Source: a virus | Reading direction: 5' to 3' (one strand) | Length of the DNA stretch: 47,776 nt | Virus record (IMG/VR): IMGVR_UViG_3300046492_000240 | Location: 1-47,776 of that record | Part shown: positions 2,932 to 43,498 of the stretch, piece after piece | How the letters are laid out: each line of letters opens with the position of its first letter | Numbering within the stretch: position 1 is the first letter of the stretch | The notes under the pieces: generated by a model | Databases searched by the model: none | What the model was told of the DNA's origin: nothing | What the model saw: only the letters and a program-made list of their open reading frames with translations | Program-made: the position numbers and the translations under genes

Positions 2932-3711
2932 TCAGTCAAATCCGTAGCTGAGATCATCAGGGTCACAGTCGATGACCAGCAGCGCGTTGCCGAAGTAGAG
3001 CGATGCAACCATGCGCTCCCACTCGCTTCTGATCTGCATGTTGATCGACACTTTTTTGTCGTCGAGCGAGGCCGAGTAAACCTCACCGAATTCGTCGCAT
3101 TTACGGAAGTGATCTTTGGTTTCGCGTGAACCTTTGATGAGCACATGAAGGTTGTGCTTCAGTTCGTAATCGGTTCTTGCGGATGATCGGTAGCCGCTGC
3201 GCGCCGACTCTTCCGACTGCGGATCGAAATAGATGTGTAGGAATTTCCTGTCCGTGCCGTAACTGTCGCCTTCGCTGATGCGAATTTCTGGCCGCTCCCA
3301 ATGTTCTTCTGCTGCTCGCTCTTTGTGGTCATCAATGAATGCGTTCAGAAGCTTGGTTAGCGAAACCTCTGCGGTGATCAGACCGCCTCCAGTGAGCAGC
3401 TCAGTGATCGTCTTGTCCGCCTGCTCAATGATCGATGAGTGCAGTGCAGCGGCTTCCCACCGCTGCCGAAGAGAGTTCGCAATCAGTGCGTTGTATCGTT
3501 GCAGCTCGAACATGTCGCTCACGTTCGCCGGCAGCGCAGATTTGACCGCCTCTTTGATCGCAGAGCCAAAGTCTCCGTAAGACCGGAAAGTGTCTTGCAC
3601 GACATCCTTGAACAGTTTGTCGACTCCCTCATCGATCAGCTCGCGGGGGCGATCGGATAGGGCATATGCGCTGACACGTTCGGCCAGCAGTTGTTGAAGG
3701 GTTTGTTCCAT
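2932..3711 (-). CDS. Hypothetical phage protein, 259 residues
   Basis: Not recognised. The sequence is mostly helical and hydrophilic in the first 150 residues, then a mixed region with several aromatic strands (KFLHIYFDP near 165, NLHVLIKG near 195) up to the acidic C terminus. No signal peptide, membrane segment or catalytic motif is visible. ATG is preceded by GGAG at seven bases. It sits in the leftward operon between the TAXI/membrane pair and the lyase-like gene, so it is probably an accessory gene acting on the host. Confidence 0.65.
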   Translation of the reverse strand: MEQTLQQLLAERVSAYALSDRPRELIDEGVDKLFKDVVQDTFRSYGDFGSAIKEAVKSALPANVSDMFELQRYNALIANSLRQRWEAAALHSSIIEQADKTITELLTGGGLITAEVSLTKLLNAFIDDHKERAAEEHWERPEIRISEGDSYGTDRKFLHIYFDPQSEESARSGYRSSARTDYELKHNLHVLIKGSRETKDHFRKCDEFGEVYSASLDDKKVSINMQIRSEWERMVASLYFGNALLVIDCDPDDLSYGFD

Positions 3712-3744
3712 AAAGATGCTCCGTGCGGATGGGTTTGTGTTGAA

Positions 3745-3857
3745 GCTGCATTGGAATGTCGGTCCTGACCAAGATGCCTAACTACGTCCGCCCGTTCGCA
3801 TACAAACAGTTGGCCTGGATCAGCTTTTTTCATGGGGCGCCGACATTCCGATGCAGC
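3745..3857. repeat. 18-bp inverted repeat around a 77-nt centre
   Basis: GCTGCATTGGAATGTCGG (3745-3762) and CCGACATTCCGATGCAGC (3840-3857) pair over 18 positions with one mismatch that would be a G-U wobble in RNA. The arm shares GCATTGG/CCGATGC with the repeat at 2035-2110. It lies just upstream of the 2932-3711 gene on the leftward transcript. The stretch 3712-3998 has no gene I can call firmly. Confidence 0.6.
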
Positions 3858-4002
3858 CTCTTTCGAGGTGATCGGGAAGGTCTCCAACCTTCTGACGGGG
3901 ACTCTGATTGTTTACATTGCCGTAGGCCCGTGAAGCGGCAATTCCGGTGAGGCTGACACCATCCCGCTGCCCACTCGCTGAATGGGCAGAAGTGATGCTC
4001 AC
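3820..4002 (-). CDS. Possible 60-residue protein coupled to the 49-residue membrane protein
   Basis: GTG overlaps the TGA of the preceding gene as GTGA, the same coupling seen elsewhere in this arm. The product is polar, Ser/Gly-rich and without motifs. Its codons run through the hairpin at 3967-3989, so the stretch may instead be untranslated structured RNA. Treat as tentative. Confidence 0.3.
   Translation of the reverse strand: MSITSAHSASGQRDGVSLTGIAASRAYGNVNNQSPRQKVGDLPDHLERGCIGMSAPHEKS
3967..3989 (-). other. Hairpin of the covarying pair
   Basis: CTGCCCA pairs with TGGGCAG around a CTCGCTGAA loop; on the minus strand GGGATG follows. Compared with 2901-2921 the loop and 3' flank are nearly the same while the stem has changed C-G pairs to G-C pairs, which argues for conserved RNA structure. 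Confidence 0.5.
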
Positions 4003-4148
4003 CGGCTGAACCGGAACCACATCACCATGCCCAGGAGCAGGCCAGACAGAACGCCTACCAGGTAGGCAATGGATACGATGTGTATAGCGCTGGCGGCGAC
4101 GAGAAGAGCGAAGCCGAGCAGGAGAACGGCAAGTAGGCGGCTGATCAC
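3999..4148 (-). CDS. 49-residue two-helix membrane protein coupled to the TAXI protein
   Basis: Starts MISRLLAV at a GTG that overlaps the TGA stop of the TAXI-like gene (GTGA), so it is translated by re-initiation. It contains two hydrophobic helices (about 4-21 and 24-43) and ends in basic residues WFRFSR. It is too small to be a TRAP transporter subunit. The strict coupling suggests it acts with the periplasmic protein encoded just before it, for instance as a membrane docking partner; that is inference. Coding is supported by the coupling and by uninterrupted hydrophobic composition. Confidence 0.6.
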   Translation of the reverse strand: MISRLLAVLLLGFALLVAASAIHIVSIAYLVGVLSGLLLGMVMWFRFSR

Positions 4149-5029
4149 CGCACCACCTTCACAACACTGTTGATCCCCTTGTCGACTGCTCGGCGAACCT
4201 TTTTCGCTTCTTCCGGCTGCATGCTTTTCAGGTAATCATTGTTGAACACGATCTGAGCGCGCAGGCAGTAGGTGTCAGGCTTGCCCATGGTCGATGTTTC
4301 CAGGCCGCTCTGGCCTTCCTTGTCGACGGCGCAGTGCGTGTACAGCGGATTGTTGTTGGCGTCCTTGGCATCCTCGAACGAGTTGTCGTTCACCTCGCCG
4401 ATCATGATCTGCTTACTGAAGTCGGCAGTGATGTCGCTCGGGATCTTCCCGGACCGGCCGATGTACAGCATTCCGGCGATTTCGATTCGCACGCCGGCCT
4501 TCGTGACGTAGCCCTGGGCGACCGCCTCAGCAGCGCTGTACCAGTCGTCAAACTCGACGATGCGCGCACCTTCATAGTCCTTGTCGGTCTTGATCCAGTT
4601 GCGCACCGTGACCAGGGCGCCGGAGCCGGACACCGCGGCGAACGCGTACTTGGCCGCCACGCTGTCCTTTTCCATCTTGCCGAAGTCGTCGACACCGGCC
4701 TTGCCGTGCAGCCAGTAGATCACCTCGGTGTGCGCGTCGCTGACCTTGAGGTCGGCGGGCATTGGCAGGCTGATCACCGCATCGTTTTGGATGACGGCGA
4801 TATCGCACACCCCATCCTTTAGCTTCTCGGCGTTCTCGACGCTGCCGCCGGTGTTGATCACCTTCACCACGCCGCCGTCCTGCTTGGCGATGGTGTTGCC
4901 GATGCTGGTGCCCAGGCTTTCATAGAAGCCGCCTTCGCCGCCGGTGCAGAAACGCAGGATTGGCGGTGCCGCGCTGGCGGCGGCTGATACACTCAGCAGC
5001 ACGGCCAGCAGTAACGCTTTCGATTTCAT
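4145..5029 (-). CDS. TAXI-family TRAP-type periplasmic solute-binding protein homologue
   Basis: A 294-residue precursor with a clear signal peptide (MKSKALLL, hydrophobic core, SAAASA followed by APP; cleavage near residue 20). The mature part opens with the pattern typical of TAXI proteins: ILRFCTGGEGGFYESLG, then VVKVINTGGSVENAEKL and a CDIAVIQND segment, all ligand-lobe elements of family NMT1/TAXI binding proteins. Three cysteines late in the protein may form disulfides. The ATG is placed by GAGGA six bases upstream; an ATG ten codons earlier has no site. No DctQ/DctM permease genes are nearby, so ordinary uptake is unlikely. A hairpin leader precedes it and a 49-residue membrane protein is coupled behind it. 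Confidence 0.75.
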   Translation of the reverse strand: MKSKALLLAVLLSVSAAASAAPPILRFCTGGEGGFYESLGTSIGNTIAKQDGGVVKVINTGGSVENAEKLKDGVCDIAVIQNDAVISLPMPADLKVSDAHTEVIYWLHGKAGVDDFGKMEKDSVAAKYAFAAVSGSGALVTVRNWIKTDKDYEGARIVEFDDWYSAAEAVAQGYVTKAGVRIEIAGMLYIGRSGKIPSDITADFSKQIMIGEVNDNSFEDAKDANNNPLYTHCAVDKEGQSGLETSTMGKPDTYCLRAQIVFNNDYLKSMQPEEAKKVRRAVDKGINSVVKVVR

Positions 5030-5058
5030 GGGTGTTCCTCGGGTTGGGGGATTTCCCA

Positions 5059-5090
5059 ATGCAGCCTGTCGCCAAGCTGCATCAGTGAAA
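5059..5090 (-). other. Hairpin leader element, copy 1 (before the TAXI gene)
   Basis: ATGCAGC (5059-5065) pairs with GCTGCAT (5076-5082) around a loop that reads TTGGCGACAG on the transcript, flanked by ACGATTTCACTG upstream and TTGGGAAATCC downstream. The element sits 30 bases before the start codon and recurs before the 5094-5279 gene. Confidence 0.55.
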
Positions 5091-5093
5091 TCG

Positions 5094-5279
5094 TCAGGCT
5101 GCAGCCTTGCAGTCAGCCGCCGTCATTCGTTGCCCATCTTCCAGCTCAACCACGCATACGCCGTTGCGATATGCGCGCTCAGTGCTGAGCCGGTTAGCCT
5201 CGCGAATGCAGGCGCCGAGGTCGCTATTGGTGAACACCTGCAGCTCGCCGCGGAGGTTGATGCGGATGACCTTGTTCAT
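5094..5279 (-). CDS. Small conserved-looking phage protein, 61 residues
   Basis: Starts MNKVIRINLRGELQVF; a compact alpha/beta small protein with no recognisable domain. ATG is preceded by GGAG at eight bases; an upstream in-frame start lies inside the hairpin leader and is less likely. It is the first gene of the leftward operon after the long structured leader, a position often taken by small host-takeover or regulatory proteins. Function unknown. Confidence 0.6.
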   Translation of the reverse strand: MNKVIRINLRGELQVFTNSDLGACIREANRLSTERAYRNGVCVVELEDGQRMTAADCKAAA

Positions 5280-5303
5280 GTCGTTTTCTCCAGTGGATTC
5301 CCA

Positions 5304-5332
5304 AAGCACCCGGTCGCCCAGGTGCTTCAGTG
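5304..5332 (-). other. Hairpin leader element, copy 2 (before the 61-residue gene)
   Basis: AAGCACC pairs with GGTGCTT (5321-5327); the transcript loop reads TGGGCGACCG. Upstream ACGATTCACTG and downstream TTGGGAATCC match copy 1 although the stem bases differ completely, which indicates that structure and flanks are what is conserved. Confidence 0.55.
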
Positions 5333-5469
5333 AATCGTTCTGGGTTGCACCGCGACCCGCTACTGGCGTCGGTCGCGGCTTGATGCGTCAGCCGTGTTGG
5401 CCCGTTGCCCGCTGCTGATTGCAGGGCTGGCCGGTCGTCTTCGGGGTGGCTACGGGGCTTCCTGTTCAC

Positions 5470-5817: not shown

Positions 5818-5879
5818 ATAACTCAAGTTATGAAGCTGATAATAACCTAGGTTTGTTTTGTGTCAATAACCAAGGTTAT
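5818..5879. promoter_or_regulatory. Left operator: three CI/Cro sites 24 bp apart
   Basis: Sites at 5818-5831 (ATAACTCAAGTTAT), 5842-5855 (ATAACCTAGGTTTG) and 5866-5879 (ATAACCAAGGTTAT) fit the palindrome ATAACNNNNGTTAT. Their starts are exactly 24 bp apart, so they lie on similar faces of the helix, and they cover the leftward promoter. The same consensus recurs at 7926-7985 beside the repressor gene, giving an OL/OR pair as in lambda. Confidence 0.8.
5839..5866 (-). promoter_or_regulatory. Leftward early promoter (PL-like)
   Basis: On the minus strand TTGACA (5866-5861), a 16-bp spacer and TATTAT (5844-5839) make a near-consensus sigma-70 promoter. Two of the operator sites overlap the -35 box and the spacer/-10 region, and the third lies at the start point, so repressor binding would shut it off. 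Confidence 0.75.
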
Positions 5880-7235: not shown

Positions 7236-7913
7236 TCAAATTCGACCTAAAACCTTGCTAGGCCCAAGAATGGCTCCAACATAGTGAATGGTCTGTATCT
7301 GCGTCCACGGGATCGTCACGCGCTCATATGCTGAATTGATCGACATCAGGCTTACGCCCTCATCGTTCTGAAACAGCAGCTCCTTGACCATGCTCTGCTC
7401 ATCAGCTGTCGTGACCATTACGTATTCGCCTGGCACGAGCCTGTGGTTTGGCTCGCACACAGCAACCCAGCCACTCCGGATCGCTGGTGCCATCGAGTCG
7501 CCGCGCAGCAGTAGAGCGTAAGCATCGGTGTCGCGGGACCAGGTCTCAACCCAGCCTCCAGCGTCCTCAAGGCCAACCCAGTGGCCGTCCGGGCCCATCT
7601 GTGCAGTGCCCATGATGTCGATCCTTCGAGCGGCTGTGGTGATAGGCGGGCCGGGTTCAACGTTGGATTCGTCAACGGCGGGTTTCGAGTGGTGTGCTCG
7701 GCCGTTTTCGCCCGTCGTCAACCATTCCGCTGTCACGCCTAGGGCGCGACCTATATCCACCATCTTCTTAGAGGTGGCGTTGCGGCCGCTTTCCAGGTGC
7801 TGGATTGTCACTTGGCTGACGCCCGCGCGCTCGGCCAGCTGCGCCTGACTCAGCTGCAGTTCCGTCCGCCTACCCAGTATTCGATCTTTGAGCGTTTCGA
7901 GCTTCGTATTCAT
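7236..7913 (-). CDS. CI-type S24 self-cleaving repressor
   Basis: 225 residues. The N-terminal helix-turn-helix (about 18-45, LSQAQLAERAGVSQVTIQHLESG) is of the XRE type. The C-terminal peptidase S24 domain has the LexA-like features: probable cleavage bond A118-G119 in LEDAGGW, nucleophile S140 in GDSM, and catalytic K177 in MVKEL. It should hold lysogeny by binding ATAACNNNNGTTAT sites and be inactivated by RecA-stimulated self-cleavage. The ATG is placed by homology; only a poor AAGG lies one base upstream, and an operator ends 12 bases upstream, so a leaderless or short-leader message is likely. Upstream in-frame codons would run through the operators. Confidence 0.9.
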   Translation of the reverse strand: MNTKLETLKDRILGRRTELQLSQAQLAERAGVSQVTIQHLESGRNATSKKMVDIGRALGVTAEWLTTGENGRAHHSKPAVDESNVEPGPPITTAARRIDIMGTAQMGPDGHWVGLEDAGGWVETWSRDTDAYALLLRGDSMAPAIRSGWVAVCEPNHRLVPGEYVMVTTADEQSMVKELLFQNDEGVSLMSINSAYERVTIPWTQIQTIHYVGAILGPSKVLGRI

Positions 7914-7925
7914 GCCTTGAAGGGT

Positions 7926-7985
7926 AAAACACACGTTATCGGCACTCAAATAACATATGTTTGCCTTGTCCATAACTTGAGTTAT
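7926..7985. promoter_or_regulatory. Right operator: three CI/Cro sites
   Basis: Sites at 7926-7939 (AAAACACACGTTAT), 7950-7963 (ATAACATATGTTTG) and 7972-7985 (ATAACTTGAGTTAT) fit the same palindrome as the left operator, with start spacings of 24 and 22 bp. They fill the gap between the divergent repressor and cro genes. Confidence 0.8.
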
Positions 7986-7988
7986 CAT
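7961..7988 (+). promoter_or_regulatory. Rightward early promoter (PR-like)
   Basis: TTGCCT (7961-7966), a 16-bp spacer and TATCAT (7983-7988), with the strongest operator lying across the spacer and -10 box. It would drive cro, the CII-type gene and replication genes. Confidence 0.65.
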
Positions 7989-12921: not shown

Positions 12922-13349
12922 TGCCGGTAAAGCTGAAACCGTTCAAAGCGAAGAAGCCTCGCAAGCCACGGATTGACCGGGAGGGGATGGAGCAAGCCGC
13001 GCTGATCATGGTGTTGAAACTGCGCCACCCCGAAGCCGCGAAGCTGATTTACCACGTTCCGAACGGCGGCCACCGGCACGTCAAGGTTGCGATGGACCTG
13101 AAGAACCAGGGTGTCCGCGCCGGTGTGCCTGACCTGGTGCTGCCGATGGCGCGCGGCGGGTACTTCGGTCTGTACATCGAGTTCAAGGCCGAGCCGCCAT
13201 ACGATGCCGATGTTTCCCCCGAACAGGATGCCTACCTGCACCTGCTGATCGAGCAGGGATATCTGGCGATCGTGTGTCGCGGGCAGGTCGACGCGCTCGA
13301 GGCGATTCGGTCCTACCTTCTCCAGCCACCAACGAGGGCCGCCGCATGA
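12921..13349 (+). CDS. VRR-NUC domain nuclease
   Basis: 142 residues. After a basic Lys/Pro-rich N terminus (1-17) comes a VRR-NUC PD-(D/E)XK fold: YHVPNGG, then AGVPDLVLP (D71) and YIEFKAE (E87, K89), and the PEQDAYLHLLIEQGY helix. VRR-NUC proteins of phages act as Holliday-junction or structure-specific endonucleases. ATG overlaps the YbcO stop (TGATG); GTG three bases earlier is possible. Its stop overlaps the integrase start. Confidence 0.88.
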   Translation: MPVKLKPFKAKKPRKPRIDREGMEQAALIMVLKLRHPEAAKLIYHVPNGGHRHVKVAMDLKNQGVRAGVPDLVLPMARGGYFGLYIEFKAEPPYDADVSPEQDAYLHLLIEQGYLAIVCRGQVDALEAIRSYLLQPPTRAAA

Positions 13350-14647
13350 GCAAAACCCGCGCTGTGAAACTGTCCGATGCTGAGATCCGTCGGCAGGCCT
13401 CCGACCTGGCCGTGCACGACCTCCGTGATCCGCGTCACCCGGGCCTGTACCTGCGCTTCGGGCAGGATCGCCAACGCGGGTCGTGGTATCTGGTGAAGGG
13501 CAAGGCGTGGAATCACATCGCCCGCTGGCCTGATCTGGGTGCCGCTGCTGTGGTGGCTGAGCTGCCTGCGCTGCGTCAGCGCCTGCTGCATGATCCGGAG
13601 GCGGCTGTCGCCGTCGGCGGCTTGGCTACGTGCGGCCAGTTGCTGGATTGGTACGGCGATCGGATGGGTAGGGACCGTTCGCTTTCCACCAAGCGCAAGA
13701 CCGGCGCACTGTCCGCGATCAAGTGCCACCTGAAACCACGGCTCGACTCGACGCCGATCCGTAGCTTGAATGCCGCCGTGCTCGACAAAGAGCTGATGTG
13801 GCCCGCGCAACAGGAGCTGTCCCTGTCCTACGTGCGGCAGCTGTTCGGACTGCTGGTGGTCGCGTTTCGCCAGGCGCAGAAACTCGGCCTGATCGACAGC
13901 AACCCGATGGCCGGACTGAAGTTTGTCGATTTCACCAAAGCGCGCATCGTGCCCAAGGCAGCCCGGCTGCGAGGCGTGCACCTGGTGGATGTGGTGCCGA
14001 TGCTGGCCGACCTGTTCGAGCAGACGCCGGGCGAGGCGATGCTGGCGCTGATGATGCTGTGTCACGGGACGCGCGTTGGCGAGACCCGACTGGCGCGCTG
14101 GAGCGACATCTCGATCACTAATGCAGAGTGGTTCATCCCCGCCGAGAACACGAAGACCCGAACCGAGCACCGGCTGCCACTGACCGCCCAGGCCAAGGAC
14201 ATGCTGAACCGGTACCGGGCCGCCCAACTCGCCCAGGGCTACGAAGGCATCTACCTGTTCCCGTCACGTCGCGGTCGGGCACTGAGCGAAGGGCAGGCCA
14301 GCAGCGTGTTCACCCGCATAGGGCAGGGCGAGTGGACCAGTCACGACCTGCGCAAGGTGGCCCGCACGGCATGGACCGATCTGGGCATCGACGGGCACAT
14401 CGGCGAGATGCTGCTGAACCACTCGCTGGGCAAAATCGCCAGCACCTACATCAATACGCAGGCTCGGGCGCAGCGTCTGGCAGCCCTGGAGAAGTGGCAC
14501 AACTGGTTAGATGAGCGTGGATTCAAAGCAATCCACAACCTGACAGACGCCCAATATGAAGATTCGCAAAACCCCGCGCAGGCCGCAAACGGCGCGGGCT
14601 GCGAGACCGTTTCTAACATTGTGAATGGCGAGGTTTCAAAAGCATGA
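13346..14647 (+). CDS. Tyrosine recombinase (integrase family) in the nin region
   Basis: 433 residues with a full set of catalytic residues: R243 in HGTRVGE, H333 and R336 in SHDLRK, H359 in LLNHSLGK, and nucleophile Y368 in STYINT. The N-terminal part has an arm-binding-like segment and a core-binding domain (about 95-195). It is translated by coupling (ATGA) in the middle of the early operon, far from either prophage end, so excision at the tRNA site is not its obvious job. It could be the phage integrase made from PR, or a dimer resolvase. It appears intact, unlike the remnant at 47129. Confidence 0.88.
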   Translation: MSKTRAVKLSDAEIRRQASDLAVHDLRDPRHPGLYLRFGQDRQRGSWYLVKGKAWNHIARWPDLGAAAVVAELPALRQRLLHDPEAAVAVGGLATCGQLLDWYGDRMGRDRSLSTKRKTGALSAIKCHLKPRLDSTPIRSLNAAVLDKELMWPAQQELSLSYVRQLFGLLVVAFRQAQKLGLIDSNPMAGLKFVDFTKARIVPKAARLRGVHLVDVVPMLADLFEQTPGEAMLALMMLCHGTRVGETRLARWSDISITNAEWFIPAENTKTRTEHRLPLTAQAKDMLNRYRAAQLAQGYEGIYLFPSRRGRALSEGQASSVFTRIGQGEWTSHDLRKVARTAWTDLGIDGHIGEMLLNHSLGKIASTYINTQARAQRLAALEKWHNWLDERGFKAIHNLTDAQYEDSQNPAQAANGAGCETVSNIVNGEVSKA

Positions 14648-15822: not shown

Positions 15823-15906
15823 ATGACGCTGATCTCTACCGATCACCTGACGGTGTGCGGAACCACAGCCAGGGTGGGCCCTCGGGCAAGGCCTGGACGT
15901 CGATAG
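15823..15906 (+). CDS. Very short reading frame after the first late terminator
   Basis: 27 codons beginning MTLISTDHL with GGAG eight bases upstream, then a premature stop. The start resembles the opening of GH19-type phage endolysins, so it might be the stub of a lost gene, but nothing recognisable follows. The rest of 15907-16055 holds only the next terminator. Confidence 0.25.
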   Translation: MTLISTDHLTVCGTTARVGPRARPGRR

Positions 15907-16014
15907 CCGGAAGTGCGGCGAACGGAAATAACACCGGCAGTCAAAGCGCCCGCAGCTCTGATGCTCCGGGTGGCTTTGGCGGGCAGCGTGGGAAGACACG
16001 CAAACCATTTCGAG

Positions 16015-42108: not shown

Positions 42109-42321
42109 ATGCCTTTTATCGTGATCAATGGCAGCAACTCGTTCGACCCTAACAACCAGGTCGAGTACGCATCCGAAGCAGAGGCTGATGCCAAAGCGCG
42201 CGAGATTCTCGGCGCCTTCCCCCAGTCGCTGATTCGTACCGCGCAACTGATGAAGACGTACCGCGCCCAGGTGACGATCACGGCAGAAGACGTTCCTGAG
42301 CAGGGCCTGGCACCTAACTGA
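42109..42321 (+). CDS. Small protein of 70 residues after the fibre genes
   Basis: MPFIVINGSNSFDPNNQVEYASEAEADAKAREIL; beta then helical, acidic. GGAG lies six bases before ATG. It could be a fibre chaperone by position, but no motif supports this. Its end overlaps the convergent acyltransferase by eight bases. Confidence 0.6.
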   Translation: MPFIVINGSNSFDPNNQVEYASEAEADAKAREILGAFPQSLIRTAQLMKTYRAQVTITAEDVPEQGLAPN

Positions 42322-43498
42322 CGGTTGTTCTGCCGATCACAGAATCAGGTCGAGTTCTGAATGCAAGGCGGCCGAACTTGTTCGCGAGTTTCACTGCGTT
42401 GTCATCTACGAATCTGGCGAACGGAATCGCCACCACAATCGAAACCAGCAGCACCGCCAATGTTGCCGCCCCCGCGCGGTAAAACAAGTTAAATGCCTGT
42501 AAGTGGGTGAAGACGAACACGCCTACCGATGAGAGGACGACTGTGTGAAGCAAATAAAGAGAGAACGACTTTGCTCCCAACCACACGAAGGGCTTGAACG
42601 AGAAGAATCTTGATACGCTATTGTCAGCCACTGCTACCCAGACTACAAGCAGTGCGCCAAGCGCCGTCGGAGCGTAATACATGGCACCAATATTCTGTTC
42701 AATTCCAATGATGAAATTATATGCGGAGGTGCAGGGTCTTGCCCCACCCAAGAACAGACCGATAACCATGGCCGATGTGTGCGTCACAGGGTTGCGGAAT
42801 TTTTCACCCGCTTTATTCAAATAGGCGCCTGCAAAGAACAAAGCATAGAACGCAGCATTAGCATGGTCGATTCTTAGGATGATATAGACGACCGGAATGG
42901 TGTAGACCCATCCGAAGTTAGACCTTCCGAAAAGTGCTAAGTAAGCGAAAAGTAGCATCGAACCTAAGAATTCGATACGAATAGTCCATAACACATAATT
43001 GTAAGTCTGGTTGCCTTCTATCAAAGACTTCCAAACTCCATCTACTAGAGCATTTGCAAGCACGGGCTCGCCTTGGTAAGCCTGAGTTATGAACCCCGGT
43101 AATTCGTTGGTCTCGATCTTCAGCAGCCCCATCTTCATCATGGCGTAGCAGACAAGTATCGAAGCGGCCACAGGTATAACGAGCCTTATGTAGCGTTTGA
43201 CTGCAGCGATTTCTAAACTTTTGCCATTGCCTGAAAAGTAAGATTTCGACAAGACGTAACCGCTCATGGCGAAGAAAATGCAGACAGCGAATCCCCCGTT
43301 GTAAAGGGTACGAGGAAAGTGAACTGCAATTGTTTCCCAGTGCTGTTTTATGAATTCCGGATTGCAGTTCTGCAAGTACGGGTAAAAGGTAAACACGCAG
43401 TGTGAGAGGACGACCATCAACGCCGCTAGGCCTCGGAGCCCTTCGAGTGCATTGTTTTTTCCGGCGGACTGCGTCAAAAGACCTGTCTTGATGGTCAA
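42314..43498 (-). CDS. Acyltransferase 3 family membrane protein (OafA/YrhL-like)
   Basis: 394 residues with about ten membrane helices and the family opening ALEGLRGLAALMVVLSHCVF, where the His is the expected catalytic residue, then IFFAMSGYVLSKSYF. Such enzymes acetylate O-antigen or other surface glycans. Phage-borne copies change the LPS receptor of the lysogen (lysogenic conversion). TTG start with GGAAGG eight bases upstream. The gene is visibly less GC-rich than its neighbours and reads against the late operon, both signs of a recently gained moron. Confidence 0.88.
   Translation of the reverse strand: MTIKTGLLTQSAGKNNALEGLRGLAALMVVLSHCVFTFYPYLQNCNPEFIKQHWETIAVHFPRTLYNGGFAVCIFFAMSGYVLSKSYFSGNGKSLEIAAVKRYIRLVIPVAASILVCYAMMKMGLLKIETNELPGFITQAYQGEPVLANALVDGVWKSLIEGNQTYNYVLWTIRIEFLGSMLLFAYLALFGRSNFGWVYTIPVVYIILRIDHANAAFYALFFAGAYLNKAGEKFRNPVTHTSAMVIGLFLGGARPCTSAYNFIIGIEQNIGAMYYAPTALGALLVVWVAVADNSVSRFFSFKPFVWLGAKSFSLYLLHTVVLSSVGVFVFTHLQAFNLFYRAGAATLAVLLVSIVVAIPFARFVDDNAVKLANKFGRLAFRTRPDSVIGRTTVS

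Follow-up and report, generated by a model that had tools for sequence, protein, structure and literature searches.

Relation to described systems

For periplasmic binding proteins encoded by phages, the known role is mainly that of a nutrient helper, as with PstS. We know of no coupled mini-protein for the cyanophage PstS. This protein is thought to serve phosphate uptake by the host (PMC3429862). In VcGluP (VC0430), a TAXI protein of a TRAP transporter, the glutamate contacts include Y45, S75, Q93, H123, and E125. The Y45 and Q93 residues are decisive; the Y45A and Q93A variants lose affinity 213- and 990-fold, respectively (PMC11574862). In Bordetella pertussis, the TAXI protein of the TAXI-GltS system (BP0403) is translationally coupled to a membrane protein outside the TRAP family (PMC12344293). 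The Spackle protein of phage T4 is a periplasmic exclusion protein, which is made right after infection and acts along with Imm (PMC7677548).

The window analyzed here is the whole stretch of 47,776 nucleotides of the IMG/VR record IMGVR_UViG_3300046492_000240. It is a lambda-like phage genome containing genes for integrase, DnaB, terminase, portal, capsid, tape measure, endolysin, and Rz, with the lysis genes at 43.6-44.7 kb. A gene pair at 3999-5029 encodes a TAXI-type protein and a membrane mini-protein. These two genes, an upstream neighbour, and the repressor gene are as follows:

3999..4148, minus strand: two-helix membrane mini-protein of 49 aa; the GTG start overlaps the TAXI stop (GTGA)
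4145..5029, minus strand: TAXI-type periplasmic binding protein of 294 aa, with a predicted Sec signal peptide; PHROG_6856
5094..5279, minus strand: ORF of unknown function, 61 aa, in the same operon, upstream of the TAXI
7239..7988, minus strand: CI-like repressor with HTH and S24 peptidase; the ORF as given probably extends some codons upstream of the true start

The phage protein shares the fold, the TGG..G.Y and TGGS signatures, and the Gln and Glu of the glutamate site with VcGluP/VC0430 and TtGluBP of the TRAP transporters (PMC11574862). It differs from them in lacking a TRAP permease and the 11-residue element after the Gln, and in having a phage-specific region with two invariant cysteines and a place in an apparent phage early operon. 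The B. pertussis system is similar in its translational coupling (PMC12344293); however, its partner is a complete symporter, and its binding protein has extra domains and a lipid anchor. The phage partner has 45-55 aa in most loci, and the coupled ORF in the window is a 49-aa frame, not a GltS symporter. T4 Spackle is likewise an early periplasmic protein of a phage that works with a second exclusion protein (PMC7677548), but it is a small helical bundle inhibiting the gp5 lysozyme, with no ligand pocket described; the model of the phage TAXI has two lobes and is not such a bundle. Cyanophage PstS is also a phage-encoded periplasmic binding protein (PMC3429862), although it is part of phosphate uptake and is not a TAXI. 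The phage TAXI belongs to PHROG_6856, a family whose only annotation is unknown function. The literature searched did not describe any phage TAXI.

The TAXI protein and its membrane partner

The TAXI gene on the minus strand begins with ATG at 5029 and ends with TGA at 4147-4145. The 49-aa ORF begins with GTG at 4148-4146, sharing GTGA with the TAXI stop, and ends at 3999. A Sec-type signal with an AxA site (MKSKALLLAVLLSVSAAASA-APP) was read from the N-terminal sequence of the TAXI, and the relatives keep the signal; no lipobox was found there by inspection. The TAXI is periplasmic by this predicted Sec export. Pfam NMT1_3 matched the protein above the cut-off (E 1.3e-7), and PHROG_6856 matched at 1.5e-42. 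The AlphaFold model (mean pLDDT 88.8) showed a two-lobed TAXI fold. Its best seven matches in the PDB were all TAXI structures, with the glutamate-bound VcGluP at the top (9ibo, E 2.6e-14). By sequence and modelled fold, the 4145-5029 product is a TAXI-type binding protein.

The initial annotation described a secreted TAXI protein in a leftward operon, with no TRAP permease, whose stop overlaps the start of a two-helix mini-protein by GTGA. The signal, the fold, the Pfam match, and the exact coordinates bear this out, and no permease-sized membrane ORF adjoins the TAXI gene among the ORFs of the window. No cognate DctQM or fused permease of a TRAP system was found in the window or in the annotated neighbours.

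The mini-protein has two hydrophobic helices. Conserved features of the Pseudomonas mini-protein among the relatives compared are an Arg close to either end, the LHIxS loop, and the GxxxG of helix 2. Pfam and PHROG profile searches gave no family match above the cut-off. A role as holin is unsupported on this ground, and because the endolysin and Rz are encoded elsewhere; a truncated DctQ was rejected because no Pfam match was obtained. Compared with relatives at least 84% identical, the TAXI has dN/dS values of 0.02-0.15, which indicate strong purifying selection, and the mini-protein has values below 0.5 in 16 of 21 comparisons. On these values, the open frames of the pair are not due to chance.

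The TAXI also contains a conserved phage-specific region, KDANNNPLYTHC...TYCLRAQ, with D223, N225, L229, Y230, C233, T253, and C255. C233 and C255, which are likely disulfide cysteines, are invariant in 26 phage TAXI proteins. This region may be an interaction surface.

The ligand pocket

N-lobe residues were matched by HMM alignment to two solved TAXIs (9oz4 and 1us4), and pocket residues outside the N-lobe were matched by alignment and spacing, not by superposition; Y45, S75, Q93, and E125 of VcGluP then correspond to Y36, S63, Q81, and E102 of the phage protein, and H123 corresponds to H100. The first four residues are invariant in 26 diverse phage proteins, down to about 41% identity, and H100 is nearly invariant. 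The S-to-Q spacing is 18 in both the phage TAXI and VcGluP. The Q-to-H spacings differ by exactly 11 residues, the length of the gap found relative to cellular TAXIs. The aligned chromosomal TAXIs of Pseudomonas do not have the pocket Gln. At the sequence level, the Tyr, Ser, Gln, and Glu of the glutamate site are all present in the phage TAXI. Because the glutamate-contact residues of VcGluP are invariant, the phage TAXI probably still binds an acidic ligand.

Distribution and conservation of the pair

Using tblastn, a TAXI homologue was identified in 303 records of annotated phages: 294 are of Vibrio, and the others are the Pseudomonas phages Lana and Noxifer, together with phages of rhizobia. 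The Vibrio carriers are mostly T5-like phages of about 114 kb (~290 phages). The Pseudomonas carriers of PHROG_6856 comprise temperate phages, lytic Lana-like phages, and Noxifer jumbo phages. In IMG/VR, 44 TAXI loci were found, including jumbo phages of 267-284 kb. The gene had been regarded as a prophage gene; since lytic phages also carry the family, it is not specific to prophages.

The plasmid search gave no TAXI homologue (0 matches). A close homologue is present in 3 of 400 Pseudomonas genomes, and the remaining matches in these genomes are chromosomal TAXIs with ~33% identity over the first lobe (roughly residues 6-86). On these results, a recent capture from a chromosomal transporter was rejected. 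By the criterion named beforehand, simple capture would leave the phage gene nearly identical to a chromosomal one that has its permease; the host TAXIs, similar over one lobe, show no such identity.

The joint conservation of the two genes, which the initial annotation had proposed to check, was found in the close loci. In 26 of the 29 close loci that have intact sequence downstream of the TAXI, the start of a small ORF is at, or within a few nucleotides of, the TAXI stop, and this ORF encodes one or more strong hydrophobic helices. As background, 5 of 46 small phage CDS have a TM helix. In locus L011, the TAXI frame stops a few codons early and the mini-ORF stays in place. In loci L025 and L026, the partner is a single-helix protein of 68 aa from a different family. 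At the partner position, two-helix ORFs of 45-57 aa are present in the Lana-like lytic phages and in Rhizobium phage RHph_I1_18; their sequences show no visible relation to the Pseudomonas mini-protein. Homologous single-TM secreted proteins of phrog_301 adjoin the TAXI in the Vibrio T5-like phages (upstream) and in Enterovibrio phage 1.121.O (downstream). The jumbo phages and loci L016, L032, L034, L062, L073, and L076 have no adjacent small membrane ORF; the partner is therefore usual, not obligatory. The mini-proteins change fast in sequence, and the TAXI is the slow-evolving part of the pair.

Proteins of phrog_301 were located at L005:5544-5849 and L004:6831-7175, on opposite sides of the TAXI. 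Their relatives are common in mycobacteriophages too.

Promoter, operators, and timing

The following elements were identified upstream of the TAXI and in the cI/cro region:

5839..5866, minus strand: PL-type promoter TTGACA-16-TATTAT, 11/12 consensus, directed at the TAXI
5866..5879, minus strand: operator-like palindrome ATAACCTTGGTTAT, next to the -35 element and overlapping it
5844..5853, minus strand: operator-like palindrome AACCTAGGTT, extending to the -10 element; layout repeated in loci L006 and L007
5818..5831, minus strand: operator-like palindrome ATAACTTGAGTTAT, identical to the cI/cro site
7972..7985, plus strand: second site of palindrome ATAACTTGAGTTAT (OR-like), in the cI/cro region

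With a promoter overlapped by operators as at cI/cro, the sequence has the layout of a lambda-type PL early operon. The promoter/operator layout repeats upstream of the TAXI in loci L006, L007, L008, L010, L020, L024, L026, and L035. The operator sequences differ between loci, as would be expected for different immunities. Terminator-like hairpins follow the two genes between cI and the PL-type promoter and fit a separate transcription. By analogy with lambda PL, a promoter of this type overlapped by repressor operators should keep the TAXI operon silent in the lysogen and allow its expression early in lytic growth. A lysogen-expressed moron was rejected on this layout. The suggestion of an envelope device of the prophage is unlikely to hold as a protective function in the resting lysogen, since the layout is that of a repressor-controlled early lytic promoter.

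The leader hairpin

A strongly covarying hairpin precedes the TAXI and is repeated one gene upstream:

5050..5092, minus strand: two-helix leader hairpin of 43 nt (model R1), directly 5' of the TAXI Shine-Dalgarno
5295..5337, minus strand: second copy, likewise directly before the Shine-Dalgarno of the upstream 61-aa ORF

In an alignment of 22 sequences, 96.4% of cells pair, and compensatory changes were found at 11 of 15 pairs. The covariation score of this set is 0.531; shuffles gave 0.155, and sliding gave no more than 0.094. The 65 distinct model matches, aligned by fitting to the model, agree with the hairpin. The covariance model found it in most close TAXI loci, often as 2-3 copies one gene apart, and in 49 of 100 Pseudomonas genomes; under strict filters, it was found in 0 of 184 other genomes drawn from the class. 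Between the end of the hairpin and the start codon there are usually 13-23 nt. The genes that follow are small and varied, and CsrA, LuxR-type HTH, and Arc-like proteins are among their products; many of these early genes of Pseudomonas phages and prophages are unrelated to each other. No Rfam family matches it, and the near-hits mir-2067 and DUF3800-V were rejected as far under their gathering scores. No description was found in the literature searched. It may be a so far undescribed element of translation or RNA control that belongs to early operons in Pseudomonas phages and prophages.

Homologues of CsrA/RsmA lie right behind the leader hairpin in the phage early operons of loci L020, L022, and L035, around 4.2-4.9 kb.

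Possible functions of the pair

The pair is tentatively interpreted as a two-part envelope module of early lytic growth, in which the TAXI is docked by the mini-protein on a host inner-membrane protein. Ligand binding is proposed because the pocket is retained, an inner-membrane location because a membrane ORF is coupled, and a role in infection itself because the promoter is early and the carriers include lytic phages. The Sec-exported TAXI would close on a glutamate-like acidic ligand in the periplasm. The mini-protein is predicted to be N-in/C-in, with its short conserved LHIxS loop facing the periplasm and a GxxxG packing helix. It might anchor the TAXI to the inner membrane and adapt it to a host membrane protein other than a TAXI-TRAP permease. 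The phage may thus redirect the ligand uptake or the ligand-dependent signalling of the infected cell. Beyond export and membrane insertion, we infer every step. The exchangeable partner sequences count against an adaptor, and the partner could have a separate function.

This adaptor-type ligand module is ranked first. An early superinfection exclusion like that by T4 Spackle and Imm is ranked second, as somewhat unlikely but a serious rival. The periplasmic protein would block an envelope-penetration or injection protein of an incoming phage, and the membrane protein would block DNA entry at the inner membrane. The layout is the same, with an early periplasmic protein (likely disulfide C233, C255) and a small membrane protein, and T4 Spackle is itself early, periplasmic, and active along with Imm (PMC7677548). 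The spread of the TAXI family over unrelated lytic and temperate phages and the fast variation of the mini-proteins are also consistent with exclusion. However, a steric blocker needs no ligand pocket, yet the residues of the pocket do not vary, and it is the TAXI that evolves slowly. The TAXI fold also differs from the Spackle fold, and control by an early promoter would leave a resting lysogen unprotected. Of the envelope device originally proposed, the two-part pair is kept; the retained pocket points to a ligand-dependent role and argues against a plain steric block.

It is unlikely that the pair is a ligand-gated envelope switch, formed by a repurposed glutamate-binding protein and a minimal two-helix partner, through which the virus, early in infection, would read the state of periplasmic metabolites in the host or alter it. 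Small membrane proteins of unrelated sequence would then have repeatedly taken the place of the membrane partner, in phages with different life styles.

An auxiliary metabolic gene, which is more doubtful still, would supply glutamate or another organic acid to a host TAXI-TRAP or GltS carrier, much as cyanophage PstS may serve host phosphate uptake. The glutamate-type pocket is retained, TAXI proteins can serve non-TRAP carriers, as in TAXI-GltS (PMC12344293), and cyanophages do carry PstS (PMC3429862). The host carriers argue against it. The TAXI-type fused permease (TIGR02123) was above the cut-off in one of five lysogen genomes and GltS was present in three, although these genomes may be incomplete, one being a MAG, and the absence of a permease is only indicative. 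Classical TRAP uptake is unlikely, because most of the lysogen genomes examined (4 of 5) have no TAXI-type TRAP permease above the cut-off. The initial annotation had set nutrient uptake aside, and this stands for the classical TRAP form. With GltS missing in two of the five, no carrier is common to the lysogens, which weakens a simple uptake model. Since 29 of 100 Pseudomonas genomes have the TIGR02123 permease, it is not enriched in the TAXI carriers. Moreover, uptake leaves the coupled membrane protein unexplained, and the host TAXIs are distant from the phage TAXI.

Least of all should a ligand-gated timing switch be expected, in which the TAXI would sense a periplasmic metabolite released by lysing neighbours and the mini-protein would relay it to lysis/lysogeny control with a logic like T4 lysis inhibition: a ligand pocket with a small membrane partner under an early promoter and the conserved GxxxG packing helix would suit it, but the TAXI is not linked to the lysis genes (43.6-44.7 kb), there is no known signalling partner, and the proposal is purely inferential.

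The phage TAXI proteins are widespread, transporterless, apparently early, and paired with tiny membrane proteins, and they keep the ligand-site residues. This suggests that, early in infection, TAXI-carrying phages influence the cell envelope of the host by means of a protein that binds small molecules. If the adaptor proposal is true, small-molecule binding would be a way for phages to act on the inner membrane of the host.

Other features of the phage genome

An alginate lyase family protein (PF08787, E 8.6e-46; PHROG_31475) is encoded downstream of the TAXI pair at 2149-2823 on the minus strand and lacks an obvious signal peptide. The minus-strand gene at 2932-3711 encodes a 258-aa protein of PHROG_2600, which has a weak, sub-threshold match to HamA (Hachiman). 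Just upstream of this gene is an inverted repeat of 21 nt with 90% identity (3742-3762 / 3840-3860). The integrase gene (13346-14647, plus strand) is downstream of the replication genes, not at the end of the leftward operon. An O-acetyltransferase of PHROG_3333 (42314-43498, minus strand) adjoins the lysis genes, and is possibly an O-antigen modification gene. A Proteo-phage-1 RNA, a known phage RNA family, was found at 15863-15942 on the plus strand (RF03044, 82.4 bits).
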